Shown here piece by piece: positions 3,406 through 47,868 of a stretch of 64,000 bases of DNA. The position numbers were made by a program, and so were the translations under genes. The notes beneath the pieces are model-generated. The model did no database searches, had not been told where the DNA came from, and saw nothing but the letters and a program-made list of their open reading frames with translations. The first letter of the stretch is position 1. Each line of letters starts with the position of its first letter. This DNA comes from Crocosphaera sp. (GTDB taxonomy: Bacteria; Cyanobacteriota; Cyanobacteriia; Cyanobacteriales; Microcystaceae), in the NCBI RefSeq assembly GCF_030064895.1, contig NZ_JASJEB010000012.1:1-64000 (forward strand), written 5' to 3'.

Positions 3406-3516
3406 TATAGCCTTTCTCGGACTCATGAGGTAAACCTAATATCTAACTCCGAACTCCGAACTCCGAACTCCTAAAACTAGAAAACTCTGTACCTCACAAG
3501 TATGAGAATTGCTATA
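3406..3516. mobile_element. MITE-like element, TATAGC ends, 111 bp
   Basis: The 27-base ends (3406-3432 and 3490-3516) are imperfect inverted repeats; both begin TATAGC and end TGAGGTA when read inward. The outer TA on each side is consistent with a TA target duplication as made by IS630/Tc1-mariner type transposases. No reading frame lies inside. The core contains three CTCCGAA heptamers. Confidence 0.75.
3447..3471. repeat. Heptanucleotide tandem repeat CTCCGAA x3.5
   Basis: Three complete CTCCGAA units plus a partial fourth, inside the MITE-like element at 3406-3516. Confidence 0.8.
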
Positions 3517-4810: not shown

Positions 4811-4939
4811 TAAGTAGTCGGACATAAATATAGTTAACTGTCTTAAGAAATGTAAATAAGCGGTAACCCCTATCCCTGCTCCCTTCTCCCCGCTCCCCCG
4901 CTCACTTTGCAGTAACGTTTATTTTTGTCCAGGTACTTA
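4811..4939. mobile_element. MITE-like inverted-repeat element, family C
   Basis: The right end (4913-4939, read on the minus strand as AGTACCTGGACAAAAATAAA and onward) is matched in inverted form, imperfectly, by the left end starting at 4812 (AAGTAGTCGGACATAAATAT). A 25-base copy of the same end sequence occurs on the plus strand at 36100-36124. The interior is pyrimidine-rich with a roughly 7-base period. It fills most of the gap between two genes. Confidence 0.6.
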
Positions 4940-7671: not shown

Positions 7672-7699
7672 AACTGGTAACTGGTAACTGATAACTGAA
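7672..7699. repeat. Heptanucleotide tandem repeat AACTGGT x4
   Basis: Four 7-base units (AACTGGT, AACTGGT, AACTGAT, AACTGAA) fill the gap between the stop codons of two convergent genes. Confidence 0.8.
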
Positions 7700-23793: not shown

Positions 23794-24540
23794 TTAAGAA
23801 GCACCAACAGCTATGTCAACCATGGCCTCTGGAGTGAGATGGGAATGCAGCACTTCCCCATCCTGAAACCAAACGATGCGCTGGGTTAGACGTGCTACTT
23901 CTATCTCATGGGTTACCATCACCACAGTAATGCCATTACTATTGAGTTCGTCAAAAAGTTCCATAACCTCGTTCGTGGTACGAGAGTCGAGTGCGCCAGT
24001 GGGTTCGTCCGCTAACAAAAGAACCGGTTGGTTAACAATGGCACGAGCGATGGCCACTCGTTGCTGTTGCCCTCCAGATAATTGATTTGGTTTGTTCTGC
24101 ATTCGATTAGCCAAACCAACTCGCTTCAAGGCTTCTGCGGCGCGATCGCGTCTTTGCTTTTTGGGTACCCCGGCAAAAATCATTGGTAACATTACATTTT
24201 CTAGTGCCGACATGTGGGCCAACAAGTGAAATTGCTGAAAAACAAAGCCAATTTTGAGATTGCGGATCTTGGCTAACTCTACCTCTGGTAACGCAGAGAC
24301 ATCGACATTATCCAGATAATAGCGTCCTGAAGTTGGTCTATCAAGACAACCAATCAGGTTCATAGTTGTGGACTTTCCTGATCCCGAAGGACCCATAATT
24401 GAGCAATATTCGCCCTTTTCTACTATTAGGTTAATCTTAGAAAGAGCATGGACTTTTGTATTGCCACTTCCATAGACTTTTTCTATATTCTCCAGACGGA
24501 TAACTAAAGATTTGTCTTGATTGGTCATTTCATTTATCAT
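23794..24540 (-). CDS. ABC transporter ATP-binding protein (MacB/LolD type)
   Basis: A 248-residue ATPase with Walker A GPSGSGKST, the Q-loop QQFHLLAHMSALEN, signature LSGGQQQR, Walker B LLLADEPTG and the switch histidine in VMVTHE. This is the LolD/MacB subgroup that pairs with FtsX-like permeases, here surely the gene at 22603 although it lies on the other strand and the two end 18 bases apart. The start is uncertain: the ATG at 24540 and another at 24528 both lie at the edge of a heptamer repeat array, with no ribosome binding site visible before either. Confidence 0.9.
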   Translation of the reverse strand: MINEMTNQDKSLVIRLENIEKVYGSGNTKVHALSKINLIVEKGEYCSIMGPSGSGKSTTMNLIGCLDRPTSGRYYLDNVDVSALPEVELAKIRNLKIGFVFQQFHLLAHMSALENVMLPMIFAGVPKKQRRDRAAEALKRVGLANRMQNKPNQLSGGQQQRVAIARAIVNQPVLLLADEPTGALDSRTTNEVMELFDELNSNGITVVMVTHEIEVARLTQRIVWFQDGEVLHSHLTPEAMVDIAVGAS

Positions 24541-24559
24541 TTAACATTTATCATTTATC
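24532..24559. repeat. Heptanucleotide tandem repeat ATTTATC x4 at the ATPase start codon
   Basis: Units ATTTATC, ATTTAAC, ATTTATC, ATTTATC. On the minus strand each unit carries an ATG, so the start codon of the ATPase gene lies inside the array. The same heptamer opens the window (bases 1-16). Confidence 0.8.
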
Positions 24560-24568
24560 ATTAGTTTG

Positions 24569-43492: not shown

Positions 43493-43597
43493 TATAGCAG
43501 ATAAAAATTAGTTAGGACATTGTTTGAATCTGTCGCTGTCATTGGTGAGGTACGAGGAATTTCTACTAATGTCCTAACCATAATGCTTAGTGCTATA
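43493..43597. mobile_element. MITE-like element, TATAGCA...TTAGGACAT ends, 105 bp
   Basis: Left end 43493-43520 and right end 43569-43597 are inverted repeats sharing TATAGCA at the tip and GTTAGGACAT inside, with a variable 11-12 base segment between. The same end structure is found at 46010-46116. The TA at each outer edge is consistent with a TA target duplication. It has no reading frame and lies between two genes. Confidence 0.8.
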
Positions 43598-45075: not shown

Positions 45076-45157
45076 CTACAATTAAACAGCAAAACAAAAT
45101 TATGATACTGTACAATTGATGAATAAGTTGCCCGTTTTCTACCTAAAATAATCACCC

Positions 45158-45202
45158 GTAGGGGTTTAACACTGTTAAACCAACACACTGTTAAACCCCT
45201 AC
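45158..45202. repeat. Inverted repeat GTAGGGGTTTAACA / TGTTAAACCCCTAC
   Basis: Perfect 14-base arms separated by a 17-base loop that itself contains a third TGTTAAAC-like copy. It lies 33 bases downstream of the PEP-CTERM gene (minus strand) and may end its transcript, though no T run is present. Confidence 0.65.
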
Positions 45203-45234
45203 AAAATATTATTATCTTCTCATTATTTGACGAT

Positions 45235-46009: not shown

Positions 46010-46116
46010 TATAGCAGTCGCCAAAGCTATTAGGACATTTTTCTGTTCCCTGTTCCCTGTTCCCTGTTCCCTTAAAATATAATTTATGTGTCCTAACTAG
46101 CCTGTCTATTGCTATA
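46010..46116. mobile_element. MITE-like element inserted in the 48-bp array
   Basis: Ends 46010-46037 and 46089-46116 are inverted repeats (TATAGCA outside, TTAGGACA inside). Comparison with the neighbouring uninterrupted unit shows the insertion site GAAAA-TA-TTTGAG; the inserted sequence is 103 bases (46012-46114) plus a duplicated TA. This is the signature of IS630/Tc1-mariner type movement. It contains four TGTTCCC heptamers. Confidence 0.88.
46044..46071. repeat. Heptanucleotide tandem repeat TGTTCCC x4
   Basis: Four perfect units inside the MITE-like element 46010-46116. The same heptamer recurs at 47806-47825 inside another inverted-repeat element. Confidence 0.85.
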
Positions 46117-46353
46117 TTTGAGTTTGTTTCTATTGCGCAACAGTTGGAGATGAAGATGAAAATATTTGAGTTTGTTTCTATTGCGCAATAGTTGGAGATG
46201 AAGAAGAAGATATTTGAGTTGGTTTCTGTTGCGCAACAGTTGGAAATGTCAATACTCCCCACACTTACTCAATTGAAAACTGCTATCAATTGCAACATTC
46301 CGTTAAAATTAAGGTCAATTTTAAGATGATCAATTATGTAGCGATCGCAGAAT

Positions 46354-47714: not shown

Positions 47715-47868
47715 ACTGATATCTTGCACCAGTACAGAAAAACCAAATCAAGAAGCCTAGAAAATCAATTATCAAGCAGTTACAGTGAAAATTAATCCTG
47801 TTGCCCGTTCCCTGTTCCCTGTTCCTTCTCTAAACTAGCTAATTTTATCGAAGGTGCAAGATGTGAGT
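47715..47868. mobile_element. Inverted-repeat element with TTGCACC ends
   Basis: Left end (ACTGATATCTTGCACC, 47715-47730) and right end (GGTGCAAGATGTGAGT, 47853-47868) match in inverted form apart from two bases. GTTCCCT heptamers lie inside (47806-47825). It occupies almost the whole gap between two convergent genes. Being short and without a gene, it is MITE-like. Confidence 0.6.
47806..47825. repeat. Heptanucleotide tandem repeat GTTCCC(T) x3
   Basis: CGTTCCC, TGTTCCC and a partial third unit, the same heptamer as at 46044-46071. Confidence 0.75.

Follow-up and report, generated by a model that had tools for sequence, protein, structure and literature searches.

Three putative miniature IS630-type transposons, two of them with heptamer arrays, in a Crocosphaera genome

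The window, a stretch of 64,000 nucleotides from a Crocosphaera sp. contig, contains three short elements of approximately 100 bp each, all without a transposase gene: MITE A (46010..46116, + strand, TA duplication included), MITE B (3406..3516, + strand) and MITE C (43493..43597, + strand). All three had been reported at these positions in the initial annotation. In each of them the mobile unit reads TAGC...GCTA and the outermost TA on either side is the target duplication, which for A leaves a mobile unit at 46012-46114 with the ends TATAGCAGTCGCCAAAGCTATTAGGACA and TATAGCAATAGACAGGCTAGTTAGGACA. The arms of A pair imperfectly, with 71% complementarity over 31 nt. The ends of C carry TTAGGACA as in A, and those of B carry TGAGGTA. 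Within the window, the pattern TATAGC-N(8-18)-TTAGGACA gives four ends, all from A and C, against 0.01 expected from 100 shuffles. The loops of A and B hold heptamer arrays, with 4.3 units of CTGTTCC in A (46043..46072, + strand) and 3.9 units of AACTCCG in B (3445..3471, + strand); no heptamer array was found in C, the family of which is more diverged. A fourth terminal-repeat element, with the ends ATCTTGCACC/GGTGCAAGAT, lies at 47721-47862 and also contains a CTGTTCC heptamer array. Neither the CTGTTCC and AACTCCG arrays nor this fourth element had been mentioned in the initial annotation.

The target sites can be read directly. MITE A is inserted in a 48-bp tandem repeat of 2.8 units (46114..46248, + strand) that contains TTGCGCAA, and the other repeat units provide the unoccupied site gaaaaTAtttgag with one TA, compared with gaaaaTA[TAGC...GCTA]TAtttgag at the occupied site. 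This bears out the TA duplication that had been proposed at 46010. For B and C, unoccupied sites were found in two genomes of the same genus (G007 and G002). The single-TA site tcaaTAtatagatttt in G007 (L228) corresponds to ttaaTA[TAGC...GCTA]TAtatagctttt in the window, and the single-TA site ttcTAgaagacataaatcaat in G002 (L214), the clearest example for C, corresponds to tacTA[TAGC...GCTA]TAgaagcagtaaatcaat. C is also absent from the other relatives compared, in which the intergenic stretches resemble the window less.

We then consider the draft genome (5.5 Mb, 188 contigs), in which the pattern TATAGCA-N(8-16)-TTAGGACA has 104+110 matches (214 ends) and TATAGC-N(12-16)-TGAGGTA has 38+51 matches (89 ends), with 0 matches genome-wide for the reversed control patterns of both end types. 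The genome-wide end search that had been suggested thus gives a clear signal for both kinds of ends. A search with a copy pattern anchored inside the left end, tips excluded, found 91 copies of MITE A. Among 80 sites that were read, 66 copies are identical over 107 bp, 13 are identical copies of a second subtype and one is 93 bp long. All 78 complete sites have TA on both sides (TATAGCA...TGCTATA), and the remaining 2 of the 80 are truncated at the end of a contig. At the position three bases from the TA, A or T is found in 57/61 left and 60/61 right flanks (62 A sites read). The interior of family A varies only in the heptamer array and at a few single bases that differ between the subtypes. 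B has 41 matches in the genome, itself included, with identities of 76-100%; some are partial, and the full matches range from approximately 98 to 140 bp, many in steps of seven. C has 30 matches including itself, many of them partial, with identities of 71-100%, and judged by divergence it looks like the oldest of the three. Family A would then have expanded in a recent burst, and B and C would be older.

The position of A relative to genes was assessed by joining the flanks of each copy. The measure is crude and was applied only where 250 bp or more of sequence is available on each side of the copy, the others having been set aside before counting. Of the 39 copies assessed, 21 lie in an open frame of 110 aa or longer, compared with a fraction of 0.02 for shuffled flanks and 0.768 at 2000 random TA places in the window. 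This suggests only weak avoidance of genes by A.

These numbers also bear on whether the elements are mobile at all. They could be structured RNAs or regulatory hairpins held at conserved places by selection, and their RNA folds do beat shuffles, with z values of -5.2 for A on the + strand, -2.8 for A on the - strand, -4.9 for B and -3.6 for C. However, any pair of inverted ends folds, near-identical copies of A occur at many unrelated places, more than half of those assessed being inside open frames, and relatives have unoccupied sites. Better folding is what inverted ends lead one to expect and Rfam has no match in the window, so RNA structure was rejected as the main function and we regard immobile hairpins as extremely improbable. 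The initial annotation had named hairpins confined to conserved places, with no matching transposase, as the outcome that would speak against its transposon reading; the unoccupied sites and the scattered near-identical copies contradict such hairpins.

A transposase gene with matching ends, which had been proposed as a check, is found in three elements. The A/C-type IS630 element (G000:C50:135-1092, 958 bp, ends TATAGCAATCGCCAGGGCGATTAGGACA and TATAGCAACCGCCAAGGCGGTTAGGACA) shares the tip and the inner box with the A and C ends. Its two frames of 131 and 158 aa have the domains HTH_Tnp_IS630 (PF01710, 1e-13) and DDE_3 (PF13358, 7e-39), and the DDE frame matches the NCBIfam IS630 transposase model NF033545 above the cut-off. 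It is the only TTAGGACA-type element found in the genome with both transposase domains, and 3' fragments identical to it occur at five other genome places. The TAA stop of its transposase lies within the right-end inner box TGTCCTAA, and many of the 33 relatives printed out have a similar arrangement. For B, the IS630 element G000:C59:2-1256 has an end, TATAGCGTTTCTCGGACTCATGAGGTA, that is letter-for-letter an end of several B copies, and a second B-type IS630 element (G000:C117:44566-45632) abuts a B copy, with one TA common to both. DDE_3 (PF13358) is present in C59 and C117; HTH_Tnp_IS630 (PF01710) is found in C117, and C59 matches other HTH models but not PF01710. As a side observation, a tandem repeat that includes sites resembling GCGATCGC lies upstream of the transposase frames in C59 (L173:1081-1176).

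Compared with the DDE part of C50, those of the two B-type elements have identities of 34% and 36%. Since the two kinds of inner box are carried by separate IS630 elements with divergent DDE parts, they go with two kinds of transposase. This does not support the previous proposal of a single family with exchangeable interiors. The shared tip TATAGC is indeed present in A, B and C, and both IS lineages have it. A single MITE family whose members exchange interiors and inner boxes would account for the common tip, the similar size and the heptamer arrays in both A and B, and TTAGGACA-type and B-type sequences are indeed neighbours on contigs C31 and C35. Nevertheless, the two end kinds belong to separate IS630 elements, and we consider such exchange very improbable. 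No exchange of whole interiors between the end types was seen among the copies read, which were all selected by their boxes and are by themselves no test for hybrids.

Taken with the unoccupied sites in relatives and the scattered copies, the matching IS630 ends in the genome support the earlier assignment to non-autonomous relatives of IS630/Tc1-mariner transposons. We estimate a probability of about 93% that A, B and C are miniature non-autonomous IS630/Tc1-mariner transposons that depend on a helper IS630 transposase with the same bipartite ends and duplicate TA on insertion. The transposase would come from an IS630 element at another place in the genome whose bipartite ends match, consisting of the tip TATAGC and the inner box TTAGGACA in the case of A and C, and of the same tip and TGAGGTA in the case of B. 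It would bind both ends of the MITE, excise it and insert it at a TA, which would be duplicated. Two related full-length transposons most likely move the three elements. MITE families are thereby paired with candidate helpers in one genome, with the insertion rule seen at three places.

None of the three transposase elements (C50, C59, C117) was seen as one uninterrupted frame. In C50 the HTH and DDE frames are offset by one step and separated by a run of A. We compared the frames in 19 relatives (L117 and L120-L137) from 55 loci with transposase relatives: the HTH motif is placed as in C50 in 13, is in the other shifted frame in 3, is continuous with the DDE frame in 2 and was not found in 1. 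A run of at least six A is present in the examined stretch of all 19. These frames and runs fit a programmed frameshift or slippage, and the HTH and DDE frames are probably joined at the run of A, either by a -1 frameshift or by slippage.

The helper of A is less certain than its class. The left end of A matches the right end of C50 at 23/28 positions, and the ends differ outside the tip and the inner box. Hence, A did not arise from C50 by simple internal deletion, and its true parent may be another IS630 element that has been lost or is unassembled. A scan of the 55 transposase-relative loci for exact TTAGGACA-type ends found no exact parent; the closest ends, in L139 and L168, agree with the left end of A at 25/28 positions. 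It is conceivable that the MITEs are as described but that a different IS630 transposase, not that of C50, moved A. A and C50 have different 14-bp spacers, and the ends of these two loci, from Leptolyngbyaceae and Planktothricoides, resemble the left end of A more closely. Set against this, C50 is the sole two-domain element of the TTAGGACA type found and has identical 3' fragments at five other places, and we consider a different helper rather unlikely.

Some IS ends contain a 6-bp palindrome (ATCGCC AG GGCGAT), which was considered as a working part and rejected; we see it instead as a feature of one IS subgroup. Among 79 distinct ends, which are related to each other, a mean of 3.13/6 positions pair, compared with 2.74 (sd 0.09) for shuffled halves, and the palindrome is poor or absent in many ends, including the MITE ends.

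Beyond this genome, TATAGC-N(11-15)-TTAGGACA is present in 46 of the 59 genomes searched, the window's own included, which makes the end motif a feature of most related genomes searched. Those of the 55 transposase-relative loci that are named come from cyanobacterial records. Abundant GCGATCGC sites are a mark of cyanobacteria, and the window has 25 of them against 0.09 expected. A literature search on the inner-box sequences gave no cyanobacterial paper among the ten listed, and searches on heptamers together with MITEs or transposable elements in cyanobacteria both led to a single paper, the same in each case.

The closest comparison is ISY100 (ISTcSa), the IS630 element of Synechocystis PCC 6803. 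Mini-elements that retain just 30 bp of each ISY100 end are still mobile, and the target is almost always a TA, duplicated upon insertion as here (PMC2170065). ISY100 is 947 bp long with 24-bp imperfect ends, near the 958 bp of C50, and its transposase combines a DDE domain with two HTH motifs in the N-terminal part, the present elements having HTH and DDE parts too; in contrast, it encodes one 282-aa protein, whereas we see two frames separated by a run of A (PMC2170065). The 187-bp MITE of Microcystis aeruginosa PCC 7806 likewise has many identical copies, 33 in one strain, but its ends are assigned to ISL3-family transposases and not to IS630 (PMC11448079). MITEs of the IS630 type are already a known kind, and the heptamer cargo is the unusual part of the elements described here. 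Nezha (Zhou et al. 2008) is reportedly another cyanobacterial MITE, and its title describes it as active.

Both A and B carry their heptamer arrays as passengers, and the arrays gain or lose whole units. The majority subtype of A has four CTGTTCC units, and the second subtype (13 copies) has CTGTTGC in all four and is otherwise distinguished by only a few substitutions. In the 93-bp copy there are two CTGTTGC units, and mixed units occur in some other A-type copies from the window's own genome and from G007 (L278, L259, L266). In B, 26 copies selected by their inner boxes were read, and their arrays have approximately two to eight units of CTCCGAA or CTCCTAA. Arrays of at least three CTGTT(C/G)C units have 187 matches in the genome, most of them inside A copies among the matches listed; since each four-unit copy of A gives two matches, approximately 180 of the 187 are expected to come from A. 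Among the matches listed, such arrays outside A lie on C2 and C54. In the sister genomes, the CTGTTCC heptamer also occurs without A ends (20 sister loci fetched). At four of these loci it is found beside ATCTTGCACC/GGTGCAAGAT ends, with both ends in L261, L269 and L271 and one altered end in L270. As the fourth window element, which is unrelated to A and 1.6 kb away from it, holds the same heptamer, CTGTTCC is not tied to one MITE family.

Heptamer repeats of Nostoc and Xanthomonas are also seven-base arrays with a variable number of units, mainly in non-coding DNA, and generally showed no association with mobile elements in that study (PMC4692102). In this they differ from the CTGTTCC and CTGTTGC arrays of at least three units studied here, most of which are inside MITE A among the matches listed. 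A tandem array inside a MITE is known from BrickBuilt of Porphyromonas gingivalis, which contains a minisatellite with a unit of 23 bp instead of 7 bp, in an unrelated organism (PMC4596501). Based on the presence of one heptamer in two unrelated elements and of another in B, on the growth and shrinkage by whole units and on unit variants that are homogeneous across an array, we tentatively propose, at somewhat less than even odds, that the loops of cyanobacterial MITEs serve as vehicles, perhaps nurseries, of heptameric repeats, and that MITE bursts then spread the arrays. If true, this would be a concrete dispersal route for heptamer repeats in cyanobacterial genomes. The heptamer cargo connects the study of short tandem repeats in cyanobacteria with that of their miniature transposons, both long-standing topics, and makes it testable whether the repeats are dispersed as transposon cargo.

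Other heptamer arrays in the window are AATGTTC at 82-115, TCCCTGC at 4873-4903, AACTGGT at 7672-7697 and TCATTTA at 24530-24562; the flanks of the first and the last were read and have no obvious inverted ends. The window also contains a 29-nt inverted repeat at 45147-45213 (79% complementary, 9-nt loop) in which AACACTGT and ACACTGTTAAACCCCTAC occur, and a sequence resembling it flanks a copy of A in L285.
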